64,000 bases of DNA, from NCBI GenBank assembly GCA_950295325.1, contig OX485804.1:27714001-27778000 (forward strand), given 5' to 3'. Under the pieces are notes generated by a model, which saw only the letters and a list, made by a program, of their open reading frames with translations, searched no databases and was not told the DNA's origin. The stretch is from Polytrichum commune. Its lineage: Eukaryota; Streptophyta; Polytrichopsida; Polytrichales; Polytrichaceae. Of this stretch, positions 29,607 through 63,203 are shown one piece after another; position 1 is the stretch's first letter, and every line of letters begins with the position of its first letter. The position numbers and the translations under genes are program-made.

Positions 29607-29946
29607 TTACACTAAATATGATATTTAGTGTCACCAATTCCAATTGTCTTGCTCAATACTGATTGTAAACCGCGGTATAGTGTCACCAACACTAAATGCT
29701 AACCCCACATTATTTGTCATTCCTTGTATAATTTTTTTTGGGGGTTGTAGATTTACAATGTTGCAATTACTGTCATTTACCAAGTGATTATTCATCCAAA
29801 TTTCAATCATCCATGACAATGTTTCATCACAAGTTGCTGACAAGAGAATGTAAGGTGTTGGCCAATGGATGAGCTCATCCATCATCCGAAAAGTTATTGT
29901 AGTGACATAAAATACCATATGACACTAAATATCATATTTAAGGTAG
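29607..29946. mobile_element. MITE, ACTAAATAT-end family, copy 2
   Basis: Starts ACACTAAATATGATATTTAG and ends with the inverted phrase GACACTAAATATCATATTTA. The interior (TTGCTCAATACTGATTGTAA, TTGTCATTCCTTGT, TTCAATCATCCATGACAAT) is shared with copies at 37,637, 43,516 and 57,967. Confidence 0.75.
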
Positions 29947-30334
29947 TTAAAGATGGCCCGGTGAAGTTTGAGAAATAACCGGTTCGAGTCCAAGACTTTA
30001 GCCAAATCACCAATCGCTTCGGAGGAACGTATCGAATATACCTTAAATAAATAAAGTAAGATTTGAAAGATATCAACATGTACCCGGTTGGACTTGGAAG
30101 CACTTGAATCTCGACTGATGTTACCCTAAACCTCCCCCAAACACTCATATGGACAAATAACCTTCTAAAACTCATGTACATAACATTCATATTCAGCCTA
30201 AATCCAAGTGCAAGAGACCCTAAATCGCGCATAATTCCTCATAAATACTTGGACCCACAAAGATCACGACAACTAGACTTGTGAAACGATGTTAGGCAGG
30301 ATGTAAGTTACCATACACAAACTTACTTGAATTA
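29947..30334. repeat. Diverged copy of the CGGTTGAGATCCTAG repeat
   Basis: The segment up to about 30,140 (ATAACCGGTTCGAGTCC near the start, GAATCTCGACTGATG near the end) resembles the inverted copy at 39,717-39,925, so it belongs to the repeat family clustered at 38.4-39.9 kb. Nothing was recognised in 30,141-30,334. Confidence 0.45.
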
Positions 30335-30845
30335 GGGCCACTTCACACATGAGACTGACAGCCCGTGACCATTACACTTCAAGCACTCTCATTGGTGGAA
30401 AAGGCGGTGCCGGTCCAAGTTTGCTACTTCACACTACGCTCGAGGGACCAACGGAGTATGTGAACGCAAGATGGATGTAAAGCCTACATGGACTCCTATA
30501 TGGCATCGAATGAATCATGTTTCATGGTCACTTGGACTATTTTCAAAAACCACCTCTTGGAGGTAAGTCTAACACAAAACCGGGAGACCATGACACTCCG
30601 AACGCTCATAACCGTTGATTTATTCTATTTTATCGTGTGTGATGAGGACCCACGTGAATAAAAATGCATTGAAATAGCATTTGGTTGAGGGCCCGGTCAC
30701 ATATGACTTCACGCTCCACTTGAGGGTCCGTGACTAGACTACATGACTTTGGAGGTGTGTTGAGACGGATTGCCTTTGGACACTTTTCTTTTGGGCTCTC
30801 ACAATCTCATGGTCACGGCTCTTGGCTCGTGTGTGAAGTGGGCCC
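30335..30845 (+). mobile_element. PIF/Harbinger-like MITE, left member of a head-to-head pair
   Basis: This 511-bp element begins GGGCCACTTCACACAT and ends with the inverted CGTGTGTGAAGTGGGCCC. TTA lies immediately on each side (30,332-30,334 and 30,846-30,848). Three-base TTA/TAA target duplications are typical of PIF/Harbinger elements. No transposase is encoded. A separate copy in the same orientation is at 61,366-61,845. Confidence 0.85.
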
Positions 30846-30848
30846 TTA

Positions 30849-31347
30849 GGGCCACTTCACACACGAGCCAAGAGCCGTGACCATGAACTTGTGAGAGTCC
30901 AAAAGAGAACATTCAAAGGCCGTCCCAAGACACCTCCAAAACCATGTAGTGTGGCCATGGATCCTCAAGTGTAATGTGAAGTCATATGGGACCGGGCCCT
31001 CAACCAAATGCTATTTCAACGAAATTCTATTCATGTAGATCCTCACACATGATAAGATTGAATAAATCAACGGTTGTGAGCATTCGGAGTGCCACGGTCT
31101 CCCCGTTTTGTGGTAGGCCTACCTCCAAGAGGTGGTTTTTGAAAATAGTCCAAGTGACCATGAAACATGATCCATTTGATGCCATGTAGGAGTCCATGTA
31201 GACTTTACATCCATCTTGCATTCACATGCTCCGTTGGTCCCTCAAGCGTAGTGTGAAGTGAACTTGGACCAGCTCCATCTTTTCCACCAATGAGAGTGCT
31301 TGAAGTGTAATGGTCACGGGCTCTCACTCTCGTGTGTGAAGTGGCCC
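30849..31347 (-). mobile_element. PIF/Harbinger-like MITE, right member of a head-to-head pair
   Basis: A 499-bp inverted copy of the element at 30,335-30,845, separated from it only by a shared TTA and followed by another TTA (31,348-31,350). Large blocks pair across the centre, for example CAAGCACTCTCATTGGTGGA with its inverse near 31,280. The two copies differ by scattered substitutions and small indels, so they look like two insertions and not a fresh duplication. Confidence 0.85.
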
Positions 31348-31350
31348 TTA

Positions 31351-34300
31351 TATTTATGGCCATCTCATGGAGGTGGCATGAACGTGAAGGTGAGGATGAA
31401 GGACAAACCAAACAATAAACGTTTCTCTCACCACCAGGTAAAGTATTCCTTATCAGGCCATATTTGCTGCCACTCCCAACGATCTACGTAACCTTTTACC
31501 CAAACGGCTCTAATTGTTGAAATGAGCAAACCACCTCAACTATCTCATGTCAAAAACACCGTGAGAGTCGGTGTCCGGGAACGATTTTCGGGCATAATCG
31601 GTCGAGGTCCTAGTGTTTCCAACTCCAGCCAGTTACATGTTGTGATCTTTCGGTGTTTCTTCACCACACTACACTAAATATACCAATCACTAAGGGTGGT
31701 ACTGATCCAAGTCACACGCACAACCTAGCCAAATCTCAAAGTCACCAAGGGTCCAAGGTGTTACCGAGTGACACTAAATTCCCAACCACAGTAAAATCTA
31801 TGCTCTTTTACCTTAAGTCTCAAGAAAGTTAATGCACGCCACGTGCTCGTCAGTGAATGGCGCCAAGTGCCTATACTCCTACGCCAAGTTCCGGTACTTT
31901 AAGTGAATAATGCCAAGTGTCAAGATGAACAATGTGTCCTACTTTTAGATCTAAGATCTTTTGGTGGCACTATTTTATAGCATAAAGGAATTCATCAGTA
32001 TCACCCTCACTAATCAATCAGTAACTAGCGGTCGGTTCTCCCCGTTTATTGGTGAGAATTTAGGTGGGCGATTATAACGCAATCAACACACGCACGAGCT
32101 GTGACTCCATAATCCGATTCTTAACTCATTCTTATGCATTAACTCAGTAACTTAACCAAACAAGGCATCGGTAAAATCGCACTACTACAACTGTGGCACA
32201 GGTGCAGGCCAAATTGAGGTACACCAAATTGTGGGTCACACCTACTCCAAATTAAGCAGCTTAAGTGCACGCTTTATTGAATAAATATAGGTGAGGAAGA
32301 AGAAGGCCGAGTCAAGTCCTCGCCCTAAATATATTTCGAGGGTTGGTGCATGAGGCCGCGAAAAGGAGCTTTTTAAGGCAGACGGCGGGGTTCACTGAGG
32401 AGTTATTTTAGAGTATATGAGGACGCTTCTGTTCTTTTTTTAGGGAAACGGGTTTAGGGTATATTACAAGAATATATTTATATATTTATATGTATAAAAG
32501 CAACGGATACATCGAATTCCGTACTGGGCTCTCATACACAGCTTGTACCTCGTGGGACGAGGGCTGTACATGGGCTCCTCTGGGTTTTGTGTCACAAAAA
32601 CATTTAGTCAACCATGCCCAAATATAACTTGGCATAGAGTAGTTGCTGGAGTGGTTGTTGCTGAGTCTCCTTTCCAAAACTCAAATTGCTCGAGGGAGAA
32701 GGAGCGTAAAGGATGTGGGTGCTGTTATTCGGTTCCTTATTCACGTTTTCCAACTGTTGCTGGTCAGATTTATATAACAAAACTCATGTTGTGTTAGCAA
32801 ATCCACGATGAAACATATGCAAAAACCGCAATGAATATCGGACCTCCTTTGCTTTAGTTATACTTATTGAAAGTGCATGTTTGTTGGTTTTTTTCATTGA
32901 ATACATAGGTCTTCATAATTGTGTTCATTATTAAGTGTATAATAATTTTAAATATTTGAAGACGTACGTAGTCTAATCTCGTTTAAACATGTGTCTTGAT
33001 GATATTTGTTCTTTGATCCCCACCGAACCGCATACCAATCAAATCTAGGGGTCCGACTAAGAATGTAACCGCATAGCCTCACATACCTTATATGAAAGTG
33101 TATGCTAGAGTGCCAAGATTGGAGTCCAGCTATGTTTCTATTTGCAAATCGCAATCACTGTATCTTGTGACATGTAGATTTTGGAGAGTCCTTCACTATG
33201 AAGGGTAGAAACTCTGTAGAGCATATATTCTGTGAAGTACCCCCTCCCCCCCCCCCCCAAAAAAAAAAAAACTTTTTTGACGACCAAAATCATGGCATTT
33301 GATAGGTGTTGAACAGTTGAAGACTTCAATATTGAACACTGCCGGTACGGTAGTCATGGTGTGGCACCCCGGTCCTGGGAGGTTAACATTGCCAATGAGA
33401 GTCACCACTCTGCCTCTGTGTTGTCATGGTAAAACTATAGTCGCGGTATGGGTAAGAAACTCAGATTTTTAAATCAAACTTGGCCAATTCCATGGCCCAC
33501 CCAACTCATCACGGTTGCTTACTAATGTTATGCATGAACTTTTGTTTAATATTTAATTTGTTTGAGACTTGGATGATTAAAATAGATGGGTCTTTAATGA
33601 CCACTTTTTCAACCAACCCACTTCTCCTTTGGGCATGAAACACGTGATTAGTACATGATTATTAGCAAAATCCAAATCAAGGCGGTACCCACTTCCCTTG
33701 TGAGTTTTAGAGCTCATGTGAATATCCTAATTCATTTTCAAAGTGGAGATTTTCATGCTCATCAAATAATCGTGTAGGTTTCACCAATTATGTTGACTAT
33801 CGAGCTTGAAACGTTAACGTATTTTGAGCATGAAATCCAATCTCTTTTGAACACATGTCTTCTTGATGTTCGTTCTTGAATCCACACCGAACCACATACC
33901 ATTGAATGAAAGATGTATGATTAAGATAAGTGACCGAATTAGGCACACCTACTTTAGTGAGCACTTCGTTTGGAATAACGGATATCTAGATGTTTCACCA
34001 TGTGGAGCTTGATTTTCAATTTCAATTTTTTTTATGTATCATCAATAGTTCATGCACTATTTGAAGGTACATAAATCTTGGCCACGATTGTGACCATGTG
34101 CAATGTTAAGTGTGAATTGTTTGAAGACAAGTTGATAACTTTATCATATAGTACACTCTAAACTCCATAGTATCAACCTTCTTAATGTCGTTCCTTCTCT
34201 TATATCTCGAAACCCTAGGGAACGTAGATTAAGGAACCAACCAAGATTGGGGCATGGTAAGGTTGTGACTGTGATTACAAGCTAGATTTAAGGAGACACA

Positions 34301-37007
34301 ATCATCTAGCGAGGTGGTTGTGGCTCCAGAAGGAGATGATAGTGGCGGGGTGGATTAATTGACTAGACTTGAGGAGTAGATGTGCACATATGACATGAAC
34401 CCTATGGTTAGGTTTACAAGTGAATTAGCCACCAAGAACAACTTGACAACAAATTGCAATAACATGTAATGAGATATAGGCTAGTCAAGGAAATGAGAGC
34501 AACAAGGTGGTCTGACTAGACTCAACAAATGGATGGGGAGATACAACTAGAACCCTCTGGTCATGATCCTAGGTGAGTTAATAACAAGGAGCTGCCTAGA
34601 AACCCGTCCATTGTTCCAACTAGGAGGTTCCTAATTGGCAATTGGTAAGGTCATGGCTGGACCTTAGAGTGATTTGGAGGTGAGCGCCAGGCTTAGGGCA
34701 AGAACCAAAGCTAAGGAATGACCCGCACAAAAGAGGAGCAAAGGAGGGTGAATCATCTTAACATGATTGTCATTATTGCAATGTTGACTATGTATCATTC
34801 CACAATGTCACGAGTTGCACTAATTATCTAGTATCATGCATCCATGTTAGAGTCGAATCATCTATTCCCAATCAAGACGTCATCATGAATCTATAGGGTA
34901 TGGGAATTTTGATCATGTTGGGATTGTTTTCAGTAATTTCTCTTAGGGGTGGTTAAAATAAGGTTCCACATTTCACGGCTTGGGCTTTTGTGCATAGAAG
35001 GACATGATTACTAGTTGTCGCGTTAATTAGAGCATGAGTTAGTGAGAATGTCCAAGTCTTAAGAACTAATCAGAAACAAATATTTCCAAAGAGCATGGGA
35101 TTGTAGGTCATAATCTAGACCCCCTTAAGGTATTTATTTTCACTTCTATGAAAGTTTTTAACATATACTTACAATCCGAAAGCAACTCCAAAAGAGTGTT
35201 TAAGAACTTAAAAACTCTTTAGGCTCAACTCTAAAATCCCAAATAGTTGTGGTGCTATAGAGAGGAAGAAGGATTGCATGCAATTTCTAGAATTGAAGAA
35301 GATCGCTCACAATCCGGTGACAATGGAAGAATACTTCGATGATGATTGACAACAATGCACACCCTTCCTAGCAACTTTTACACCAACAATTCTTAGTTTC
35401 TATGTCTCCAACTTTGGTTATTGTATCACCATGAAATTGATTATGTAATGACACATGTCCTTGGATTTGAGTGCTAAAGTGAGGAAGAATTCATCTCAAA
35501 ACAAACGGTTATGGCAAACTCTAGACATTGCTAATGTGTTCACGCCAACGTTTGGCCTCAAAAATTCACCATAATTTTCAATTTCAGGAATAAAATCACT
35601 AAAAAATTGGCAATCCTCCTAAATTCTATGTTCCTACACGAGAAGAATTTGCATTGCCTTATACTTCTCTAGATCTGGTGCATAAGCTCTTAAGTGATCG
35701 ATTATGGGTAGCTCTACCTTAACACTATAGAACTCCATAGTAACACATGCACTTTGGTTGCCACAAGTGTGATATTATGGAGTTTAGAGTGTATTTTTAC
35801 ATGTGCTTCGATATCATGTACCACTAGTGCATGTGTTTTATACAGTTTATGGATAGTTGTCTCATTGCGAGATTTTCCCAATATTAGACAACCTTGCTCC
35901 TTTGTATACATATATGTCAAAATTCCCAAACACTTCTACAACTGAAAATATAATTGATTTGATCTTAATCCAACCCACATGTAGTGTACAAAATTACAAT
36001 CATGCACTTCAATTTTATTTCATGTGGGCCATAATTGACATGGCTTGCAATTACCTGAACACGATGGGGCTTGGGAGTTAATATATAACTTGGAACACAC
36101 TTACATACTTAGGCCCCCCGTTACACTTGAGAGCTTGATAGCTTTAGCAAGAAAAAGTCTTCTTATTGGTGCACCTCTTACACACCCCTTGTTTACTCCA
36201 AATCCACTTTACACTAGAGTTATGCGTAAAGTCTTGGCATCAAACTCCCGTTGAGTTGGTTAGAACGTGAGTTTGAGAGCTTATGCATAAAGTCACCAAA
36301 CTTTCCTTAATATTTCAATTAACATACTCAAAGAGTGTTGTTAACTTTAAAATTGGTTTTCTAGCATGTTCTACTAGAATGGGTGGGCCAGGTTAGCCTT
36401 GTATAAGCAAATTTGGGATTTGGGGTGGCAAGTCCCATGGACATACCTTATTTTAGATCTTAATTTTTCTTTTCAAAGTTTTTGGGATGGCAAGAAGTCC
36501 AAACCCACAATTTCGTCCCTCTTTGAAAACTTTACCCATAGCTTTATTGAGCTTTTAATTTTCGAACTAGGTTCACAATGCTTAAATGACACCTTGATGG
36601 ATCCCATGTGGAACATCTACACCAACCTTATGATCATCTCAATCAAATCCCTAAGCTATCTCACGGAGGTTGTTGAGGAATGTGAAGCTTTAGAGCTCTC
36701 ATTTTGTGGGCTCGAAGCCATAAAATTGCAAGCATTGTTTGGCTCATATCGAATTCTCCTTGTTTGGTACCATTCTCATTCATGGACACTTCACTTTGAG
36801 CGTGGCCACTTTATGCTTACTCAAACTTATTGAGAGCTTCAAGATTAGTCAAGCTTATAGATTGAGCTTCCAAGGAAAGCTTGTCAAATCTAATCTTCAA
36901 ACCCCTCAAGTGTAAGTTTGAGCTCTATTGTAAAAGGGGTCTTAGTGCAACTTGGGGAACCTATATGGTTACTTGAGTCGGAATAATACTCAAATGGGTA
37001 ACCTTCG
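31351..37007. other. Gene-free stretch, about 5.7 kb
   Basis: No recognisable gene on either strand. Seen: a fragment of the CGGTTGAGATCCTAG repeat near 31,570-31,650; inverted fragments of the GGTTAGGTGTGGA repeat near 32,980-33,090 and 33,840-33,910; a poly-C then poly-A run at 33,241-33,271; and diverged copies of the 21.4-21.7 kb sequence near 34,190 and 34,770. A 144-residue open frame at 36,399-36,833 has no family resemblance. Confidence 0.45.
35727..35798. repeat. Small foldback element
   Basis: The two ends (ACACTATAGAACTCCATAGT and the TATGGAGTTTAGAGTGT side) are inverted counterparts of about 18 bp. An inverted relative lies near 26,898-26,955, and a lone end near 34,148. Probably a tiny non-autonomous DNA element. 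Confidence 0.5.
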
Positions 37008-37242
37008 GAGAGAGGGAATCATCGTATACGAGGGTACCTCTCATTCAACCAACATATAACACCTGAATAGTATGTAACTTGGAAGTTATTTTTTAAAGTT
37101 GATTTGACACCGGTTTTAGCTTCAAAGACTTCAAATTAGTTCATTCGAGGTCATTTGAGATGAATTGGCAACAAACCTATAGGGGGTCAAATTTTTATGT
37201 CGGATGGATGAGAGGTATGCTCGTATATAGTAATTCCCTCTA
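37008..37242. mobile_element. MITE, GAGAGAATTATCGTATACG-end family, copy 2
   Basis: Ends GAGAGGGAATCATCGTATAC and the right-end ACTCC-free segment before CCCTC are inverted counterparts over about 45 bp. It abuts a 5'-truncated SINE copy at 37,244, so one of the two probably inserted into or cut the other. Confidence 0.7.
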
Positions 37243-37243
37243 C

Positions 37244-37560
37244 ATGTGACCTTCCCAACACTTGATTTTTGGTGCCCCCTACTACTTGTGGTCCACCCAA
37301 TCATAGTGGGGGGCATCTGGGTGAACCAAACATTCTCAACCAACCATGTGGGAACCCATGGGCTTGTCATGGGGGACAATAGATATTAGCTAGCTTGTCC
37401 ATGCCCATTCAAGGTATTCACCTTCAAAAGAGGGGAGTAGTTGTTGGAGCCCCTCTAATTAATGTCCATTTCGGAACTACATATAGATTCAGACCATCTC
37501 AAAAATGAAGCAACACCATAAATCACACTAGAGGCAACATCTGAGTCGTCTTTCTTTCAT
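37244..37560 (+). mobile_element. 5S rRNA-derived SINE, copy B (5' truncated)
   Basis: The copy begins within the 5S-like head (ATGTGACCTTCCCAACACTT, equivalent to the C-box part). It runs through the shared body (CCACCCAATCATAGTGGGG, CAACCAACCATGTGGGAACC, CAAGGTATTCACCTTCAAAA) and ends at GAGTCGTCTTTCTTTC, as copy C does. The head is missing upstream, where the MITE at 37,008-37,242 abuts. Confidence 0.75.
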
Positions 37561-37636: not shown

Positions 37637-38035
37637 TGCACTAAATATTATATTTAGTGTCATATGGTATGTTGTGTCATGGTGGTAACTTTTCTAATAA
37701 CACTTCTTATGAGTAAGTTAACAAGTACTATCATCCCAACTTACTTCTAGTTCATCCAAATGCCAATTATTGAAACAAAGTTTGGTACATTCTGCAGCCT
37801 AACGTTTCTGTAATGAATTATTGTCACGGATGATTGAAATTTAGATGAAAAAAACACGTAGCAAGTGACAGTAATCGCAGCGTTATAAATTTACAATGCC
37901 CAATTTCGCTTTACTAAGGAATGACACATAATGCTAGGTTTACATTTAGTGTTGGTGACACTACACATGCAGTTTACAGTTTGTAGTGACCTAGACAAAT
38001 ACAATCGATGACACTAAATACAATACTAAGTGTAG
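37637..38035. mobile_element. MITE, ACTAAATAT-end family, copy 3
   Basis: It starts GCACTAAATATTATATTTAG and ends GACACTAAATACAATACTAA plus GTGTAG. Compared with copies 2 and 4 the interior runs in the opposite direction (ATGACTGAAA-type block reversed, TAACGTTTCTGTAATG added). Confidence 0.7.
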
Positions 38036-43515: not shown

Positions 43516-43853
43516 CTACACTAAATATTGTATTTAGTGTCACCGATTCTATTTGCCTTGTTCAATACTAATTGTAAATCGCCCATGTAGTGTCAACAAC
43601 ACTAGATGTAAACCTACCATTGTTTGTCATTCCTTGTCAAAAAAATTGGGCATTATAAATTTACAATGTTGTAATTTAATGCCACTTGCTAAGTGAATTT
43701 TCATCCAAATTTCAATCACCCATGACAATATTTTACTACAGAAATGTTAGGATGCAGAATATCCTGTACTTGTAAAGTTGGGATGACAGTACTTGTAAAC
43801 TTATTCATAAGAAGTAAAATACCATATGACACTGAATACAATATTTAGTGTAG
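43516..43853. mobile_element. MITE, ACTAAATAT-end family, copy 4
   Basis: CTACACTAAATATTGTATTT at the left is the inverse of ACAATATTTAGTGTAG at the right. TACA flanks both sides (43,512-43,515 and 43,854-43,857) and may be the target duplication. The interior matches copy 2. Confidence 0.75.
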
Positions 43854-49536: not shown

Positions 49537-52500
49537 ATGGCCGTGGCGACCATGGGATCGCTCAATCTGGGCTCCCAGCTACTTGGCCTGCAAATTGGGT
49601 GGAAAAATCATCGACAACAAGGTCCCCCAAATTTCAGCAGAGTCATCATCACTTCCCATGTGAGCTGAATTTTTGTGAGCACGAATGGGGGGTTTGATGA
49701 TTTGTGTGTTTTCCTGGGAACTCTGAAGGTTGATCAATCTGCTGTCATAACATTCGTAAGTGATGTAGTGGGTTTACCCAACCCTAGACAAGTAACAGCT
49801 TGGAGAGTATAGTTACACTCGGTGTGATTCTATTATTTTTTGGCAAGATGTTTAAGTTGACAGCTGGTAGATGGGAAAAGGCTTCGTCCAAAGATATTAG
49901 GTAACAATTAGATTGGTGACGACTGATGAGGCCTTAATGCCACTTGACTGTGCTTGGCATTCTTAGATGTAATCACTGGACCTCGATTCTGGAAATTTAT
50001 TCGTGAAGCTAGAATCATAGAAAGAGATTGTCCTTCCACATTCTTAAGCCTGCTACGGTGATGCAGGTGAGAGCAAGAGTTGAAGACGAGAAGAAGAAGA
50101 ATGGGGTTGTGATTACCGGTGGCACAAAAGGGTTGGGATACTCGTTGGCTCGTGAATTCTTGGCTAGGGATGAGAAGGTTGTCATTTGTGGACGCAACAA
50201 GGATCGACTTCATGCTGCTGTGAATGCATTACAGGATGAGTATCATGGTGCAACCATCCATGGCATACAATGTGATGTGTCGAGTCCGTCTGATGTTGCT
50301 GCCTTGGCCTCATTTGCAGTGGAGGAACTTGGGACCGTCCATTTCTGGATAAACAATGCAGGTATGTTCTTATGTTCTTATGTTCTTACATGCATACCTA
50401 TGTGCTAAGGTTCCAGATCTTCGAATTCGTGAAGTTGAAAGAGCTCTCTTATAATCTTCAAACTTCTTCAGTGAGTAATGTATGTTGAAGAATCGATGAA
50501 TTCACAGATTCAAATTACTTCTCTTCTGAAGTGAACATGGAAGATAAATTGCACTTTTTGTTTTGCTGAAGAACTAGACAGTGCAGCGATTGATGGATGG
50601 GATAATAACTCATGAATTTTGTTAGAACATCCGTATTGTGTTTGTATCTGACATGCCTTACATACCACTTTGGGTTCAGAATCTTCGCATGGCCGAGGTT
50701 GAGGAAGCTTTAAGGTTAGAGCAACTCCTATGGTTTATTGTAAAATGATTCTCTCAATGATCGGCTTTCAAAGTTTTTTGGGCCAATACCTCATGCTCAT
50801 CCCACCCACAAAGCCTCTAAACCCCTCCCCACTCGCACGAATTCAGGTCAAGGGCACTTTAGCGGGTTGTTTCTCTCTCAATAATTGGTGGGCGAAAAAT
50901 TGTAGGATATGTATGGACTTTATGTGTGAGATGAGCATGCGATATTGGACCAACAAATTTTGAAAGCCGATTATTGAGAGAATCATTTTACAGTGAACCA
51001 TAGGAGTTATTCTAACCTTTAAGCTTCTTCAGTGAACAATGTATGTTGAACAGTCATTGAACTCGCAGATTCAAATGTACTTCTCTTCCCAAATGGACAT
51101 GGAAGATAGAATGCAAGTTTGGTTTTGCTGAAGAGCAAGAGAGTTCAAGGATTGTGGGTATAAATACATGAATAATCTATGTTAGGACATCAGTATGGTG
51201 TTTGTAGCTGAAATACCTGACAGCCTAACGGGAGCTAGACGAGTTTAAGAAGCAACTCAAAGAAGTGATAATTAAAGGTTACATTAAGTTGAGTAGATCA
51301 CCTATGGTGCACCCGTCCTCTTCGTGGAGAAGGAGGGCAAGTTGAGGATGTGCATCGACTAGCGGGCCTTGAATAAGGTAACCGGACTTGGTGAGATCTT
51401 CAAAAAGTTCATCACACAAATGGAATGCAGGGGAAGTCACAAGCAAGAAATTACTCGCCGATGTAGAAGCTACCGAGATAGTGAGGGTTAGCGGTACAAA
51501 TGTATTGGGGTCTCTCCTGTGCTGCAGAGAAGCCATTCGTCTCATGCGGCTACAAGAGCCCAGTCCCACGGCTATCTATCACATTTTCAACATGGGATTC
51601 TCACGATGGGGTGCCAATTTCACCAAGTCTGCGTGCACACACAAGATGACCAAAGTGGCCTTGACTCAGCTTACTCGTTCTCTCACCAAGGAGTTACAAG
51701 CAGCAGGTGCACATTTTCCACCCATTCATTTGCTTTATGATTCTCCACACTTTGTGAGGGGATTCAGAGTTTCATACAATGTGTGCTCATTGCTAAACCC
51801 TATACTTCTACCATCAGATATAATGGGTGGCTTAAACCCAAGGCCTTAACCCGGATCCCATGGGGACTCTGAGGTTAAGCTGCCTAAGGCCGAAATAGGA
51901 CTTGGATGGGTCACCTTTCTAGCGCTTTTGATTTCCAGTGCACCTTACCACCTATGATCCACCCAATCATTGTTGGGGTATCCGGGTGAATCGGATATTT
52001 TCAACCAACCATGTGGGAACCTAGGGGCTTTGCCCTTGGGGGAGATAGGGGCCGGCTGGCTTGTCCACACCCGTTCAAGGTGTTCACCTTCAAAAGGAGG
52101 CAATAGTCTTTGAGGGCACTCTAGTTTAGGGATTACATACAAACTTACACCAACTCAAAAATGGAGCTACACCATAATTTACGCCGGTGGCAACATCGGA
52201 GTCGTCTTTCTTTCTCTCATCGGCTATCAGCTTTTTTTGCATCACTGTTCTTCATGGTAGTAACAATGTTTTTTGTTTGCTTTACATTCTCCCCCCTGCA
52301 GGTCTAAGCAGCATAGGTGTGCACAATTTATCTCCAGGCATGGTTCTCACAGATTTATTATTGAAGGACTCGACACCAATTGCGCGCCGATTCTTCAACA
52401 CATTGGCTGAAGAGCCAGAGACTGTGGCAGCAGACTTAGCACCACGTATACTTTCAATCCAAGGAACAGGGCAGAGTATCGAATGTTTATCCCCCCCTTT

Positions 52501-53478: not shown

Positions 53479-56400
53479 TCAAAACTTCCCGGAAGTGAGC
53501 TTTTGGAGGAGGATTTCAGAGTATCCGGGTGAATAGTAGTGCACAATCTCGATGGGATAGGCACTGTTTACGCTATCAATGAGTTCCTTAATCTCACTCC
53601 CTGCTTCCACGGCAATCTCTTGCATCTTTGCAAAACTGCCCGAGGTCACAAACAACGTCTTGGCATCTTGGTCATGTGGCACAACCTTGGCAATTTGTGA
53701 CAACACATACTTGAGAATGCCTTCGGGTAGCGGAGGACCCTGTGGCAGACCATGAACCAAAACTAGTCAGATATCTGTTATGAGTTGCATATGAGAGGAT
53801 GCTCAAAGAGGAGGTTGTGCACATTTTCCATGAGGTATGCAGGTGCTATTCGGTTACTTTTCTTCATCAGACACCTATATTTGAGTAGTGTGTGGTTTGG
53901 TCATTCAAGGAAATGTCTCAAGGTGCGCCATTCAAGAGGTCTCATGCAATTCAACCAGAGTTTTGGTCAAGAGTTTGTTGTGTGGATACGAGACTTCCAT
54001 GCTTGATAGGTTTTTGGTGCATGCTAGGAGTCGGTGTGGAGGTTTAAACGAAGAATATTCTATATTGGTTCATGGAGGTCCAAACTCAATTTAGCACCTC
54101 TTAACATATATGCAAAATGAGTTTGGCTCTCAATGAACCAATCTAGAATGTTTTTCATTCACACCTCCACACAAACTTTTAGCATGCACCGAAAACTTAT
54201 TGAACATAGAAGGTGTCATATGCAAAACAACCAACTCTCAATTTAAACACCAGTTGAATTCAAAAGGACGTCTCTAACATGGAGATAGTCATTTTACAAT
54301 GATAGGAGTTGTTCTATTGGTCATAGCAACAATGTTGTGATGTTAACTACACTTGAGGGCATTGGAGTCATTCTCTCGCGGCATTCAAGGAAACGTCTCA
54401 ATGTGCGTCATTCATCAAGAGGTTCCATGCAATTCAAAAGTGATTTCTTGGTTGAGCATAGGACATACTGCACATGTGAATTGCAATTTCATAGTTCGTA
54501 TGATTGCAATCCGGAGGGAATTAAGTTCGAAACCTACTTGCATAATGGAGTCAAGTGCCGGGAAGTGTGTGAGGCGATCACAGATGCCCTTGATGGCCTT
54601 CTTGCACTTTGTCTGCAAGTCTTCACTACTCGTCTTGGAGATGAAGCCATTCACCAACGCCGGCAGCACATCCTTCTCAGCCACCGCCTTCGCATGGTTG
54701 GGAGAGTGTCGCCCAATTTGGCCGAGCGACCAAGCACTCGCACTCTTGATATGGTCCTCGACTTCTGTTACAAGTGCATCCAAAAGTGGTGGAATTCCCT
54801 CCGAAGCTATCACTGTGAGAGCCAGCGTCTCGGAGAAGGCCGCGATGTAACCCAAAGCCATCACTCCTGCAAGGTACAAGGTATCCAATGAAATTGAATT
54901 AGCAAAATAGGCACCACTAGCATTTGAGTCCTATGCAATCGTCCCACGTCGATGAAAGAACAATGCAAATTTACCATTGTGCTAGATTTGCAAATTTTCT
55001 AGGTGCATAGGACAAGTTTCCAGTGATGTATGTCAACTCTTAGCTTATAGTAAGATATCTATGTATCATCATATGAGTCTTAAGTAACCATCATACGTTG
55101 GTGAAAGAGCAATACAAATCTACCACTATGACAGATTTGTGGATTTTGGAGCGACATAGGACGTGGTTTTCAGTGATGCAAGTCAATTGCCCATGACTTG
55201 AATGCTTGTAATGTATGTGAGACGATGATGACAAGAAAGATAATGATGTTCTACAATATTTTATTTGATGTTGATTGGATGAGTGTTGGACTTGAAGTCT
55301 TTTGAGACATGATTTAATGTTGCACTTTCTATACAAAGTATTTGTGAAGGTGGTACTTAGTAATTTTTCACTACAAGCGTACAAGTCTTGGGCAATTGAC
55401 CTACGTCATTAAGAAATCATCTTACGTCACTGAAAAATATACAAATCTACCACAGTGGTAAATTTGTATATTTCTTCTAGTGACGCGAGATGATTGCCGA
55501 GGATTCATATGCTTGTTGTGGTTTTAGGTTCGAAGTTTGTTGGTGTAAGGTATGCGGGTGTTATTTGGTTACATTTCCTAATTGGACACCTATATTTTGA
55601 TTGGTGTGTGGTTAAGTGAGTATCAAAAAACAAACACCATAAAAACACATGTTTAAAAGTTGTTGGACTACATCGTCAAATTTGATTAACTACTTTACAC
55701 TCGATTGTGAACACAATTGGGAGAACTTACGTGGGTCGGTTGGGAGGCAACTTGATGAGTAGTGAGAGTATGGCAGGTGGCAACTAATGTTATCTTTCTA
55801 ACTAAACTAGTAAGTAACATTGACAATATTTCATCTACACATGTCATTTGGCTTTCGGGTTTTATTTTTATTTTTTATGTGTATGTATAATATGTGTGCG
55901 TGTGTATGTGTATTCTTCATAACATTACTGAGCTGATGAGTGTGTTCATAGGCCTAACAAAAAAATTTGAGAACAAAGACTCCAAATGTCAAAATTCCAT
56001 TGCTTCAAATTGAATATGAAGTCAAGGTAGCTGAGCATTGTTTTCTTTTTTTTCATCGTCATTCTTATTCTCATCTTTATTTTCATTCTTGTCATCTGAG
56101 TGTCGGTGAAGATGGTGGGGAACATTAGACATAGACATCATATACAATGTTGGGAGAACAGAGGTTCTTTAACACTTTGCTCGACTGCAAATCCATAATG
56201 ACACAGTGTTGCTTCAACTCTGCACCCAGCTTTGAAAGCTGAAGTTCACTTCAAGTCAGAAAAAAGTCGATGAAAATGATGACTAACAAACCTGGCAGGC
56301 GCTCATTGCCAACGGTGTCACGGATATTCTCCACCAGAGCAGCCACTCCACCCGTGGCCACAACAAGCTGTGCGAGCTCTGGTGTGTGCTTACACACTTC

Positions 56401-59400
56401 ACGGACCACAGTGGCCGAATTGCGTCTCACCATGGGATCAGTGTCCCTCAACAACAAATAGATTTTCGGAAACACGTCGGCCGCCACTATCACCTGCAAC
56501 CTCAAATCCTCCCTCACATGTGATTTAAGAACGTCAAAGAATGCTACTGCCATTCCACGTACGCCAGCAACTTCAATTTTGTATGGCTTCATTAAACCTT
56601 AAAACGTCATCATATCAGGTTCGAGGGTTGTGTACAGTAATAAATTTACCGTACTAGCCTTTGTGTATATTCGCAATTTGGAAAAAAAATTGAAGGGTGG
56701 TTGAATACTAATCAAGTGCGACAGGGGCAAGTACCTCGGCTAGGTCCAGAGTGTGCTTTGCAATCTGTGCTAAGACAGCACAAACCTGCAGGCGCACGAG
56801 TATAAAATCAGGACGACATTGAATGTTGACTGCCAAGTTGCATCAAGTTACAACCCTGAAATTTTTCAACACACATTGCTGCATCGCTTGGGAGAAAGTG
56901 GCCACTGCACTTCTCAATAAATGGGAACAGCAGATATAATGAAAAACGTAAGTAGAGCATGTAAATTGAGTGTGAAACCTTCAAGCCCTAATAAGAGGAA
57001 AGGATATGACCCCACTCTCCCGTACGTTTCACCAATAATAAATATGCAGATTTCAAAATCTCAGACTCTCTTGTCAACAATATTTATATCTCAAATGGGA
57101 AGACCTTCAGTATCTTTAATAAGAATCGCCTTCATTAAGAAGAATACAAACAGAAATGGCTAGACTCACAAGCCCAAGTGGCGAGTACGAATTTAAAGCT
57201 TCATCTCAACATCCCCAGAATCAGTCGTGTGGGAATGTCTCAAGACATGGAGGACCAAAATGAAGTCTAGAGTGTCATAGTTTGTACCAGCGTTTGACTG
57301 GTGTCATCTTTTTTGATACCATTTGGATATCTATAATGACGATTTTCACATTTTTTTTTCTTTATTACCGATACTGTACGGGTATTTGAGGATTTTTTTT
57401 GTTCGACATCTTTCAAATCTAGGTATATATTATGCAAAAAAACCTTCATATCTGGGTAAACCCATCTCAGTATCAATATATATGATCAAGAATGGTAGTG
57501 TTGACCCAAATAATAACTCAGGCGACAAAGATTCTCTCGCCTTGGAATTCCCATCAAACTATCGATATACGAGGGTTATTACGATTTTGACACCTACGGG
57601 TAGGTCCTTTGATGCCATTATTGATATTGATTGTTGATACCATGCATTCACCTATACACAAGACCAACATCGATGTGTACGATTCTTCTTAGCACACATC
57701 GTTAATTCAAGATGGAAATCGTGGAGCGAAGCACGGACGAGAGAAACATGAGTGGGGAAGACGTCACCTCTCTCCTCAACTTGGCGTCCCCATGGCTCAC
57801 AAGAGGTGCAACAAATGGCACAGTGCCTGCATCCACAATTCCTTGAGCAAGCTCGGGAGTATGCTTCGCAATATCAGCCAACGTACAAGCGGCCGTACGT
57901 CGGAGTGATAGCTCAGGTTCCTGCAACCACACATGGCCAACAACGAGTACGCTAAACAAAATTTTTTGTAGTATCATATAGTATTTTATGTCACTGTGGT
58001 GATTTTTTGAATGACGCTTCTCATGAATAAGTTTACAAGTACTGTCGATGGATGATTGAAATTTCAATGAAGTCCACGCCAATTATTGAAACAAACTTTG
58101 GGTATATTCTGCATCCGGAACAATTGTGTAATGAAATATTGTCATAGACAATTCAAATTGGGTTGAATAATCACTTAGTAAGTGACAGTAAAATTATTGC
58201 AACATTGTGAATCTATAGTGCCCAATTCTCTTTACAAGGAATGACAAAGAATGCTAGGTTTACATTTAGTGTTTGATGACACTCTTCAGTCGGTTTACAT
58301 TTAGTGTTGAGCAAGACAAAAGGAATTGGTGACACTAAGCACAACATTTGGTGTGGTAACTTACGTTGAATTTGAAAACATCACAAAACAATGAGAATCT
58401 ATTGTAGCATGTAGTGTCCTTTCAATTTTCGGGCGATTTTTTTAGTATAACACATAGGCAGTACGTACTCTACCACATGTGGAGGGACTCAGAAAGGGCA
58501 GGGACTCTCCTCGGCAAATGGTCTCTTTATGTATAGCTTAGATAAGGTAGGGAGACAGTGCCAAAACCATCAGTTTAAGCATTTAGTGTGGACTATTATT
58601 ATATTATTAAATTCTAAATGACTCTCTTCATCAATGGAAAGGGGATTCCAACGCACCAAAATGTGCCTTACTTGAATAATTGTATGTAAAAGTTAGTTGT
58701 GTTGGTAGATGATTCAAAAGCATCGTCACAAAAAATTGTCAAGGTATGGTGGCGAGCATTCTCATTATCAACATGTACTTATCGTGCTAAATTTAGTGTG
58801 TTGGTTTTGAGCGAGATGATGGTTTCAGCATGTGCGCTTGTGTGTGAGAGAGAGACAAAGATGGGCATGGCTATGCACGTAAAATTATTTAACTCGGTCA
58901 TTGAGTTATCACTCCGTTTCTTAACATACACCCCTACTTGCTATCTACGCATCGGGGAGCTTACTTGGCTCAATCATTTTTGCCCCTTGGAGGTACCAAA
59001 CTCATTAATGTATTAGGTGCCTTAAAGATTTGCAAAGTTATGCTCAAAGTATACATGTAGCCACGAGATATGAGGACATGATTGACCGATGTTATATGCA
59101 AGCAATGACTAGAATGGGTGCATTCCTCTAGCACATCGTACCTTTTTTGATTTGCAGTGTTCAACTCCTACTTTGAGACATAGAAATGAGAGGTTCTACA
59201 TCATTTATTCCATGTGTGGACTTTGAAATAATGTGGATAATAAGTAGATTGGACGACATCAATTTTGAGAGGCCTTAAGATAGAATAGACCATGTAAAAT
59301 AGTGTTATTTTATCAACAAAATCACAAGTGGCATGATGTGTCACATGGCTTGGCATGATTCATGATTCATGAGGCCTTAAGAAAATGTGATCATGACAAG

Positions 59401-62070
59401 TGGTATACTGTGAAGCACACCAACGACAAAGGTAGTGCCACATGACACATGCACAAAAGACGAGTGTTATGACATTGGACTACATGCTAAAAAATTAGAC
59501 ATCATTCTAGGCTCAGTATTTAACACGATTGGGAGGTAAGGTGTGATCATTTGAGGGGAAACATAATACTCACTTTGACTTCTTATTATTTTTGCATCTC
59601 AAATGTGGTTTCTACATTTGATATGGCAATCTTTGTATCCCACAATTGCTACTTGAGTGAGTAGGATGGAAAATTCATGGATGAGTGCTCAAGCTAGATG
59701 GAAAAAAGAGTGATGTTCACATGAGAAAAGTTATGTACGCATGGATGGTAACTATACCAAATCATGACTCTTACCTAGAAACAAGCCCTATAAATTCTTT
59801 TCCCAAATGAACATGAGAGCCCATGGCCGGTTTTTGACACACTAGGTTTGCCTAATCAAAACTTCGAGAATTCGTAGCCGATACATAATTTTTTTCATAT
59901 GATGTCCAAAAAATACATGCTAAGGTGAGTTGAACCCCTCTTTCAATTACCAACAAGACCCAACAACATTTTATGTTAATTAATCTATTAATAGTACCTG
60001 AACTGCAAGCACCAAGAGGCTGACACCACCCGCATCGACCACAATTTGGGCGAGCTCTGCGGTGTGGCGCGCAATGTTGCTAAGGGCCCCAGCAGCCACT
60101 TCTTTCACTGCAGGGTCAAACTCCTCCAAGCACAAGATTAGGGGTTGGATGGACCCTGCATCCACCACTGCCTGGGCCAAGGCTGGGGAGTGCTTGGCTA
60201 TGGCTCTTACAACCCCAGCAGCAGCTTTCTTGTTGTACCTATTCTGCTCCCTGGAGCCATTTCCAATACACACATGTGGCAAAATCAATAGCTAAATAAC
60301 ATTCTCCATATCCTTTACCATGTTCACATTCTAATATCGGGGGGTGGGAGTATAGTGTCACAAAGCTATCTCCTACTTGTACCAATGGCATGCCCAATAA
60401 TAGCCTAAATATTTGATACATCAAGCCACTGACACGTGGCCATCGTAGGTCTCAAATTCAGATGGTAAAGCCCCCGAGATTTGCAATATGGCACAAGTCC
60501 AAGAATATTATGTAGTTGCTCGCATAGCTCACAAAACATATACCCTTTACTAACTACTATTAGGTTGGGACCGGTTGCTATAGATATAATTCCAACGGTA
60601 CTTGCAGAGCCTAAGAAATGTTTAGAGTACCTCATGTGGTCCCCATGAGGGTGCGTTGTACTAAACACGTACGACTATACGTAAGTGCACAAAAGGGATA
60701 TCAATTTGAACTTTGCCGTACTACGTAAACATATGTCACAAAAATTATAACTTGTAGTTATGTACAAGTATGGAGGACCTCTAAAAACAACACAAAATGC
60801 GGGTTTTGCATTCTACATATGATAGGGGGTTGATTGTTCTTTAAAAGGTATACTCATATACTTATGTTAATGACGGTACATAAAAATCATTTTCTCATGT
60901 TATACATATTTTCACTTGTATCATTAACATCGAAATTGTGCGTGTATTGCTTACTTCTACAAAAACAAACCTTGTATATATAGGTTTTTTTTAAAGTATA
61001 TTGCAAAAGCATGTGAATCTTGATTAAATGAAAGGCTCACCCCCGGGGATGTGGTCACTATAAAATGAATCTCTCAGTAATCAAATTTCAAAATTAAAAA
61101 AAAATGGTCAGGCGGGGTGGGGGGTGGGGGTGGGGGGAATATTGAATGCTCAACTCACACATCAACTCCATACAAGTCATAAATCTTCATCGCCCACTGT
61201 TTATTGAGAGGTAACCCTAATACAAAGTCCTTTATACGTATGAAGGGATTTAGACATATTGCCTTGCCTGTTGAATCGGTGGGCAAAAAGGATTTGGGGA
61301 ACATGTAGGCATGCTCAAAAACCTAGAGACATGCCAATTGTTGGGAGTCGGCATACATTGGTTAAGGGCCACTTCACACACAAGACTGAGAGCCCACGAC
61401 CATTACACTTCAAGCACTCTCATTGGTGGAAAAGGCGGAGCCGGTCCAAGTTCGCTTCACACTATGCTTGAGGGACCAACAGAGTAGGTGAATGCAAGAT
61501 GGATGTAAAGTCTACATGGACTCTTACATGGCATCGAATGGATCATGTTTCATGGTCACTTGGATTATTTTTGAAAACCACCTCTTGAAGGTAGGCCTAA
61601 CACAAAACCGGGAAACCATGGCACTCCGAACGCTCACAACCGTTGATTTATTCTATTTTACCATGTGTGAGGACCCACATGAATAGAAATTCATTGAAAT
61701 AGCATTTGGTTGAGGGCCCGGTCACACTACACTTGAGAGTCCGTGAGCACACTAGATGATTTTGGAGGTGTCTTGGGACGGCCATTGGACGCTTTCTTTT
61801 GGGCTCTCACAATTTCATGGTCATGGCTCGTGTGTGAAGCGGCCCTAAGACTAAGTTATTTCCAATGTCGGTGGAGTGTGTGTCTTACTTGAGGGAGTAG
61901 ACAAGCTGGATGAGGATGTTTTCGTGCACGATGGCTTCGGCCAGCTCCTCGCTGTAGCTAGCCAGCCTGCTGAGTGCCAACGAGGCCGTCTGCTGGATGT
62001 TGGGCACACAATCCAGTAACAAGGGCCGTAACAACGTCATCACCCCCGCATTATGCAGCACCTCCACATT
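53479..62070 (-). CDS. SPAG6: SPAG6/PF16 axonemal central-pair armadillo protein (5' exon missing)
   Basis: Seven minus-strand exons (62,070-61,889; 60,250-59,998; 57,920-57,768; 56,785-56,735; 56,493-56,292; 54,866-54,538; 53,739-53,479) give 476 residues in frame. The product is the conserved armadillo-repeat protein of the C1 central-pair microtubule, required for flagellar motility (PF16 in Chlamydomonas, SPAG6 in animals). Alignment is almost end to end: NVEVLHNAGVMTLLRPLLLD, NRYNKKAAAGVVRAIAKHSP, then repeats each carrying a (I/L)A(K/R)HTxELAQ phrase, GNERLPGVMALGYIAAFSE, SASAWSLGQIGRHSPNHA, SSEDLQTKCKKAIKGI and the signature tail IVHYYSPGYSEILLQ. Known orthologues have about 35 more residues before the first visible exon, so the initiator exon lies further right, probably beyond the window. 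Introns are long (up to about 2.1 kb) and filled with repeats. In a plant this protein is expected only where swimming sperm are made. Confidence 0.95.
54005..54201. mobile_element. MITE in SPAG6 intron (exons 54,538 / 53,739)
   Basis: About 197 bp with arms of about 65 bp: AGGTTTTTGGTGCATGCTAG at the left and AGCATGCACCGAAAACTTAT at the right, continuing into GTGTGGAGGT/ACCTCCACAC and TATATTGGTTCAT/ATGAACCAAT. Non-autonomous; superfamily unknown. Nearby, a phrase starting CATTCAAGGAAA at 53,902-53,975 is repeated at 54,382-54,457 in the same intron. Confidence 0.65.
54916..55510. repeat. Three diverged CAAATCTACCA repeats in a SPAG6 intron
   Basis: Units near 54,916-55,050, 55,070-55,200 and 55,380-55,510 share ACAAATCTACCA, TCAATTG and TACGT phrases and are partly self-complementary. 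The third contains AATATACAAATCTACCA facing TAAATTTGTATATT. A CACTACAAG end stands at 55,369. They look like small foldback elements. Confidence 0.5.
57967..58356. mobile_element. MITE, ACTAAATAT-end family, copy 5 (decayed)
   Basis: The interior matches copy 3 (TAAGTTTACAAGTACTGTC, GAACAATTGTGTAATG, GGTTTACATTTAGTGTT). The ends (ATCATATAGTATTTTATGTC and GACACTAAGCACAACATTTG) are diverged. It lies in the SPAG6 intron between exons 60,250-59,998 and 57,920-57,768. Confidence 0.65.
61111..61138 (+). repeat. G-rich tract with quadruplex potential
   Basis: Four or more runs of 4-6 G separated by single bases (GGGG-T-GGGGGG-T-GGGGG-T-GGGGGG) within a SPAG6 intron. On the SPAG6 RNA strand this would be C-rich, so any quadruplex would form in DNA. 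Confidence 0.55.
61366..61845 (+). mobile_element. PIF/Harbinger-like MITE, single copy
   Basis: A 480-bp element begins GGGCCACTTCACACACAAGA and ends CGTGTGTGAAGCGGCCC, flanked by TAA (61,363-61,365 and 61,846-61,848). It is a close relative of the pair at 30,335-31,347. It inserted only about 40 bp inside the intron from the donor of SPAG6 exon 62,070-61,889. Confidence 0.85.
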
Positions 62071-62982
62071 CTACACATAAACACACACACACACACACAC
62101 ATAAATACACATGAACACACACAAGAGAGAGAGAGACAGCCTCTCATAGTGAATGGACCCACAATCACATAGATTTGGCATCGGACATGACCATAACATT
62201 GTTCAACTTTGGGCCTTTGCATGACATGTGGGAATAATAGGTCATGGCATTGCCAATCCAATGACGTTATTCACTTGCTTGCTATCAACTGTTCCATTCT
62301 AATAGTATTTAGTGATAGTGTTCCACATTCTACACACACACACAAGATGGCCTCTCAGAGTGAATGGACCCACAATCACATAGATTTGGCATTGGACATG
62401 ACCATAACATTGTTCAACTTTGGGCCTTCGCATGACATGTGGGAATAATAGGTCATGGCATTGCCAATCCAATGACGTTATTCACTTGCTTGTTATCAAC
62501 TGTTTCATTCTAATAACATTTAGTGATAGTGTTCCACATTCTACACACACACACATAAGACGGCCTCTCAGGATGAATGGAACAACAATCACATAGGTTA
62601 ACATCCAACATGACCATAATATTATTCAACCATGGGCCAAGGGATCCCTTCACGTGGCATCCAAGAATAATAGGCATGGCATTGCCAATCCAATGACGTT
62701 ATTCACTTGCTATCAACCGTTCCGTTCTAATAATCTTTAGTGATAGTGTTCCACATTCTATACACACACACACACACACAAGACAGCCTCTCAAGATGAA
62801 TGAAACAACATTCACGTAGATTAACATCCGACATGACCATAACATTATTCAACCCTGGGCCGAGGGATCCCTTCACGTGGCATCCAAGAATAATAGGCAT
62901 GGCATTGCCAATCCAATAATGTTATTTACTTGCTATCAATTGTTCCATTCTAATAATCTTTAGTGATAGTGTTCCACGTTCT

Positions 62983-63013
<31 letters not shown>

Positions 63014-63203
63014 ATGGCCTCTTAGGATGAACAACAATCACGTAGATTAACATTGGACATGACCATAACATTGTTCAACCTTGGGCCAAGGGACCCCTTC
63101 GCGTGGCATCTCGAAATAGTATGCCATGGCAATGCCAACCCAATAACATTATTCAGTTGTATCAACCGTTTCGTTACAATAATATTCATTGACAATGTTC
63201 CAC
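62064..63203. repeat. Five-unit tandem array overlapping a SPAG6 splice acceptor
   Basis: Units of about 211-259 bp start near 62,064, 62,323, 62,534, 62,751 and 62,974 and end near 63,203. Each starts with CCACATTCTACACA (one CCACGTT variant), then an AC microsatellite, then ATGACCATAACATTGTTCAA-like text and TTTAGTGATAGTGTTCCACA. The first seven bases of unit 1 (62,064-62,070) are the first seven coding bases of the SPAG6 exon. On the minus strand every unit therefore has TGTGTAG|AATGTGG or a near copy. Confidence 0.85.

Follow-up and report, generated by a model that had tools for sequence, protein, structure and literature searches.

A probable SINE3-type retroposon with a 5S rRNA-derived head in a Polytrichum-type moss

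What kind of element is a short dispersed moss repeat whose 5' end resembles 5S rRNA? The question arises from a 64,000 nucleotide stretch of DNA, referred to here as the window, in which the initial annotation had recognized three copies of a repeat, the most complete with a 5S-like head, and had read them as a SINE3-type retroposon. Plant SINEs such as TS, Au, p-SINE1 and AngioS are derived from tRNAs. A 2022 review of land-plant transposable elements gives tRNAs as the source of plant SINEs and names no plant LINEs other than L1 and RTE (PMC9033089). Our analysis upholds the SINE3-type reading, and we consider it highly probable that the Polytrichum-type moss carries a non-autonomous, non-LTR retroposon of this type, ∼402 bp in length and derived from bryophyte 5S rRNA. 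The support consists of a 5' head that is collinear and similarly spaced with the 5S rRNA of the moss itself, a dispersed family in which copies share one body and are flanked by target-site duplications (TSDs) of variable length, and the lack of coding capacity, terminal inverted repeats (TIRs), long terminal repeats (LTRs) and a recognizable tRNA. By the usual definition, namely a 5S-derived promoter head and mobilization by a LINE, the family would be of SINE3 type, with both the LINE tail and the use of RNA polymerase III being putative.

That three dispersed copies share one body is borne out by alignment; c1 (51,825-52,213, plus strand), c3 (17,796-17,397, minus strand) and c2 (37,246-37,558, plus strand) align over one common body with sharp ends. 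The minus-strand copy had been placed correctly at 17,494-17,800 except that this interval is too short at the 3' end, the full copy covering 17,397-17,796. Copies c1 and c3 are full-length, with non-CpG divergences from the consensus of 6.2% and 20.7%, respectively. The 5S-derived head of c1 lies at 51,839-51,932 (positions 14-109 of the RF00001 model) and includes box A-like (51,873-51,888), IE-like (51,890-51,899) and box C-like (51,904-51,916) elements, all on the plus strand and positioned by comparison with 5S. At the 3' end (52,178-52,217) a hairpin region, TTTACGCCGGTGGCAACATCGGAGTC, is followed by a CTTT-type tail, and this part resembles the 3' end of a resident LINE. The left TSD of c1, CATCAGATAT (51,812-51,821), and the right one, CATCGGCTAT (52,218-52,227), are identical at 8 of 10 positions; the score of a longer stretch containing this duplication is reached by 1.4% of random pairs. 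For c3 the 5' duplication is TTATGCACTGAG (17,800-17,811, minus strand) and the 3' one TTATGCATCAAG (17,385-17,396, minus strand), with a score that is reached by 1.1% of random pairs. In a test of 46 copies, described below, the scores of c1 (6.0) and c3 (6.9) both fall below the threshold of 7, the latter just so. The site of c1 is apparently intronic, the surrounding gene being weakly called as similar to short-chain dehydrogenases from a Pfam match below cut-off and a downstream exon read by eye.

For the second plus-strand copy, listed at 37,244-37,560, no head had been noted, the head having been described for the most complete copy, c1, where it indeed stands. The head of c2 was overlooked because it is split by an insertion of 239 bp (37,007-37,245, plus strand) that is MITE-like, with TIRs that align over 49 columns and 9-bp flanks GTAACCTTC and GTGACCTTC which, we presume, fit a Mutator-like MITE. 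Upstream of the insertion the 3' part of the 5S head, from IE to box C, is found at 36,971-37,006 (plus strand) and includes GTCGGAATAATACTCAAATGGGTAACCTTC and CGGAATAATACTCAAATGGGTAACCTTC, while the sequence from box C on, comprising body and tail, resumes at 37,246; before 36,971 the head is too decayed to be placed well. No TSD was recognized for c2 when its 5' start was set at box C, 64% of random pairs reaching its score.

The claim that the c1 head matches 5S rRNA in order and spacing holds up well. The matching segments CCGGATCCCAT, GGTTAAGC and GGATGGGTcACCT are collinear with 5S, the local score against an angiosperm 5S sequence is 67 while none of 2,000 dinucleotide shuffles exceeds 35, and the head is the top-scoring site for angiosperm 5S in a scan of the window. 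Searched with Rfam, a 521-bp stretch that includes c1 gives a 5S match of 23 bits (E 0.022; gathering score 38), 5S is not listed for the whole window at E≤1, and of 20 of the 39 fetched copies described below one is listed at E≤0.5, with 27 bits and thus below gathering. Taken by itself c3 has no significant 5S match, either by Rfam or by local score, but it does align with the head of c1. In order to compare the family with the moss's own 5S genes we used as reference the 12 best RF00001 loci of the genome (29 matches listed, 47 scored of 15,430 candidates). Consensus positions 14-95 align with positions 14-96 of this reference with 67 of 83 columns identical and one gap, and the score of 99 exceeds both the 81 obtained with the angiosperm 5S and the highest value, 38, among 5,000 shuffles. 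Both the consensus and moss 5S have CCAAGGC upstream and GGCCGGAATAGTACT before box C. Consensus positions 1-13 are diverged yet collinear with 5S, so that collinearity extends from near 5S position 1, and blastn of the consensus matches 5S loci of the genome, mostly at 84% identity over 69 bp (range 80-89%, E mostly ∼2e-15). Judging from these alignments, it is highly probable that the SINE head (∼96 nt) arose from the 5S rRNA gene of the moss itself. The head is closer to moss 5S than to the angiosperm 5S, animal 5S lying outside the comparison, and an independent birth is therefore suggested. With its box A, IE and box C the head should carry an internal type 1 RNA polymerase III promoter.

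The genome searched amounts to 407.8 Mb, nearly all of it in seven of the 64 contigs. All 40 of the scored matches to c1, the best of 2,155 candidates, span nearly the whole query, with identities of 78-81% except for the query itself. A consensus was built from 41 copies, i.e., 39 other fetched places together with c1 and c3; as scoring in each search was confined to the top 40 matches, this sample is biased to the better preserved copies. The element so defined begins with the 5S head of ∼96 nt, continues with a body of ∼270 nt and closes with a hairpin and a tail of (CTTT)n, the tail following GAGTCGTCTTTCTTTC and varying in length. Within the element, column agreement (as printed for the first and last 90 columns) is mostly 0.8-1.0, and lower at CpG-like sites, dropping at both ends to 0.27-0.74 in the flanks, where it is mostly below 0.55. 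The longest stop-free frame of the consensus is 63 amino acids. Position 172 carries TTTT, which could stop RNA polymerase III early. A search with the consensus gives a best full-length identity of 90%, with 91% for the body alone and 94% for the head alone, and at non-CpG sites the 41 copies diverge from the consensus by a median of 10.4% (range 6.2-20.7%). Given the median divergence and the best full-length identity the family is not young, and by these measures it looks old.

A genome-wide search had been proposed as a check for many copies, and there are well over a thousand dispersed copies in the moss genome. When up to 3 mismatches are allowed, 20-mers of the 5' end, mid-body and 3' end occur 1,126, 1,364 and 1,704 times in the whole genome, with reversed-pattern controls of 17, 21 and 24, respectively, and the same 20-mers recover 38, 38 and 36 of the 41 copies. 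The decrease in counts toward the 5' end fits 5' truncation. Copy density in flanking sequence, where 4 extra copies were found in 220 kb, extrapolates to ∼7,400 genome-wide and conflicts with the 20-mer counts; the latter miss diverged copies, and the numbers are too small for a choice between the estimates. Pattern scans of viral contigs and of genome contigs gave no match.

Target-site duplications were likewise to be expected, and they are found in the majority of copies. Among 46 distinct copies with enough flank, leaving aside short-flank copies, duplicates and partial copies (c2 and the L068, L052 and L010 pieces), scores of at least 7 are obtained for 28, as against 3.4% of permuted pairs, scores of at least 8 for 22 (1.0% of permuted pairs) and scores of at least 10 for 10 (0%). 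The remaining 18, c1 and c3 included, score below 7. In the 28 copies the best-scoring repeat stretches are 7 to 19 bp long, and perfect examples include TCCAGAAAGCAAA (L008) and TGGTACAGCAAC (L057). Together with the 3' end these features are consistent with a scheme in which RNA polymerase III would transcribe the SINE from its 5S-type promoter, as the box sequences suggest, and the reverse transcriptase of a putative partner LINE would recognize the 3' hairpin and tail. Target-primed reverse transcription, to which the TSDs and the tail point, would then copy the SINE RNA at a nicked target and leave duplications of ∼7-19 bp as well as some 5'-truncated copies.

Which LINE might have served as partner? 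The genome is rich in LINEs that carry an Exo_endo_phos_2 endonuclease (at least 150 matches, with 150 of 401 candidates scored). One family combining endonuclease (EN), reverse transcriptase (RT) and RNase H is represented by L094:1-5700 (G000:C4:10124401-10131900), with relatives L084, L086, L088 and L090-L092. The L094 frame, still open where the retrieved sequence begins, encodes 1,899 amino acids with endonuclease, RT, a PCIF1_WW match (E 3.6e-6, below the Pfam cut-off score) and RNase H, and the family is not obviously either L1 or RTE. In 13 copies the LINE 3' end reads mostly CATTCAYGCCGG, then a hairpin and a T-rich tract such as TTTTTCTTTTC, to be compared with AATTCACGCCGGTGGCAACATCGG, hairpin and (CTTT)n in the SINE. 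As to the matching LINE 3' tail that had been proposed as a check, the SINE end shows a likeness over ∼38 nt, with hairpin and T-rich tail, to one resident LINE family, and the partnership is plausible rather than proven. Scores of the 13 LINE ends against the SINE end range from 22 to 34 and are at least 28 for 10 of them, these ends being related to each other and not independent. None of 72 control pyrimidine tracts, each taken with 48 nt upstream, scores above 26, and none of 409 does with a looser tract rule; four segments with the motif CA[CT]GCCGG were left out of the set of 72, and the looser rule showed these to be LINE ends themselves. In plain shuffles of the first four LINE ends the observed score is reached by 11, 40 and 24 of 2,000 in three cases and by 1 of 2,000 for L094. 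On the basis of this likeness we regard the EN-RT-RNase H LINE as reasonably likely to be the partner of the SINE.

It is also possible, though we rate it clearly below even, that the same SINE was moved by another LINE, for example of L1 type, or by a relaxed poly-T mechanism, in which case the similar 3' ends would have arisen by convergence. The common stretch is short, the 13 ends count as fewer than 13 observations, shuffle support is modest for three of the four ends, and zf-RVT (L1-like) LINEs are present in the genome as well. Against convergence, ATTCAYGCCGGT, the hairpin and a T-rich tail are common to both elements at about equal distance from the end, and 10 of the 13 LINE ends reach scores of 28-34 that are attained by none of the 409 other tracts, the maximum there being 26. 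With the EN-RT-RNase H LINE as the candidate partner, the fuller proposal, to which we give only a little more credence than doubt, is that this would be the first 5S-derived SINE family of land plants, born in a moss from its own 5S and mobilized through its hairpin by a LINE that is neither L1 nor RTE. A second EN LINE family (L082, L093 and others) also occurs in the genome.

Plants do have a known element that contains 5S sequence, the Cassandra TRIM, which is widespread in land plants including ferns (PMC7215508, PMC10886601), and the moss copies could in principle be solo LTRs of such an element, moved by the integrase of an LTR retrotransposon. We consider this very unlikely. Cassandra, which shares with the moss family a borrowed 5S promoter in a plant, is an LTR retrotransposon with 5S within both LTRs, a primer binding site (PBS) and a polypurine tract (PPT), none of which is seen in the moss SINE; here the 5S block is at the 5' end rather than in mid-element, TSDs are variable in length and longer than 5 bp, and the copies end in (CTTT)n and do not have terminal TG...CA. 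The PBS TGGTATCAGAGC has 3 matches in the window at ≤2 mismatches as compared to 4.57 expected, which is not above chance. No second full copy is found within 1.5 kb of 30 copies with long flanks, where one head-only piece (L068) is seen, and the terminal direct-repeat score of the consensus is 13 (a raw score, with no shuffle comparison). TIRs were not found at the consensus ends, with a score of 10 against a shuffle mean of 11.4. Nothing in the flanks or at the consensus ends indicates that the copies are parts of a larger LTR or TIR element.

How regularly the head accompanies the body can be judged from a ranking by body only, in which 40 of 2,526 candidates were scored. Of the 40 top-ranked body matches, 37 retain a recognizable head and 3 (L118, L125, L126) are cut within the head, in keeping with the 5' and mid-body 20-mer counts and in conflict with a 5S-like block missing from most copies. 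Of these matches 27 are among 50 places that had been matched earlier from query position 1-3. For the other 13 we inspected 73 bases at the expected head site, the head being visible by eye in 10 and cut in 3; 12 of the 13 sites exceed all 300 shuffles, and L123 does not, though it reads GGGTGGCTTAATCCCAAGGC. Among the 40 top-scoring head matches, 24 do not coincide with any of the 50 places from the c1 and consensus searches, and near at least 5 of these 24 (C2:44288566, C2:39053695, C4:16255963, C5:41411298 and C1:25067002) a perfect body or tail 20-mer lies on the same strand. That isolated 5S pseudogenes were joined by chance to some other repeat, such as a DNA transposon or the body of a tRNA SINE, is likewise very unlikely, for although a head-only piece occurs once (L068:59-170) and those 24 heads fall outside the earlier places, the same head-body junction recurs in the 37 body matches, as the initial annotation had argued from the common body, at least 5 of the 24 heads have body or tail nearby, the TIR score is at chance, and ARAGORN finds no tRNA in the window, the consensus or the 41 copies, though degenerate tRNA heads could escape it.

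The L068 piece, ∼112 bp long, consists of the 5S part followed by TTTTGTTT and has a possible 9-bp TSD, TTTCCTAAA/TTTCCTGAA, read by eye; it might represent a short form or else a transcript that ended early. A separate head-only family, suspected from this piece and from the 24 heads, is not claimed because 5 of the 24 have body or tail nearby.

The moss family shares with animal SINE3 elements (zebrafish SINE3, AmnSINE1, OS-SINE1, HaSE3 of Lepidoptera and others) a 5S head with box A, IE and box C, a different body after the head and, putatively, a 3' end related to that of a LINE, which in the moss is a candidate partner; it differs from them in having a plant host. For the vertebrate families the LINE partners given are of CR1 type or RSg-1 (PMC3747384 Table 1); in the moss the candidate partner is a LINE with RNase H, and the element ends in (CTTT)n. 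The initial annotation had described SINE3 as known mainly from fish and some mammals; vertebrates are indeed among the reported hosts of 5S-derived SINEs but so are insects, and 5S-related SINEs are described from the fungus Aspergillus fumigatus (PMC5063351), short retroposons outside animals that we liken to the moss family by description and not by sequence. Plant SINEs derived from tRNAs resemble it in size, TSDs and, in some cases, T-rich 3' ends, and are distinguished by a tRNA head with A and B boxes, which ARAGORN does not find in the moss SINE. A search of the open-licence literature, with Repbase and most subscription papers lying outside it, found no report of a 5S-derived SINE from a moss or other plant. 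If our reading is true, plants join animals and a fungus as hosts in which SINEs have acquired a 5S promoter. An origin of Cassandra has been proposed in which a 5S SINE inserts into an LTR (PMC10886601), with capture from a 5S rDNA array as the rival proposal (PMC10853983); the first would need 5S SINEs in plants, and the moss family thus bears on it. The family also offers a testable SINE/LINE pair.

Elsewhere in the genome there are pairs of partial 5S matches in direct orientation (43-52 bits, ∼182 bp apart), at G000:C2:59433593-59433888 and G000:C7:14288127-14288425, which could be Cassandra-like LTR pairs or 5S fragments. Several further features of the window lie outside the SINE copies. 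A repeat with long inverted arms (30,327-31,351 and 61,358-61,832) is like PforCL1 of Polytrichum formosum; the PforCL1 forward primer matches exactly at 30,391 and 61,422, and has 2,040 occurrences in the genome as compared to 0 in a control, while the reverse primer site, at 61,789-61,807, has one mismatch. From these sites a product of 386 bp is expected in the window, as compared to the 398 bp reported for Polytrichum formosum (PMC6739443). Together with the PF16/SPAG6-like exon noted below, the primer sites make a moss of Polytrichum type, and not a flowering plant, almost certain as the host. Rfam lists the PforCL1-like palindrome as mir-2004, below the gathering score, and this listing is probably spurious. 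A dispersed family of four copies (29,608-29,831 and 43,517-43,771; 37,778-38,035 and 58,119-58,357 on the minus strand) lies near a palindrome, CACTAAATATNATATTTAGTGTCA, and a tandem repeat with units of 211-223 bp in about 4 copies occupies 62,134-63,203. On the minus strand at 54,415-54,930 is an exon like that of PF16/SPAG6, an axonemal central-pair protein that, among plants, would be expected solely in those whose sperm are flagellate, with an E-value of 4e-57 to a solved PF16 chain.
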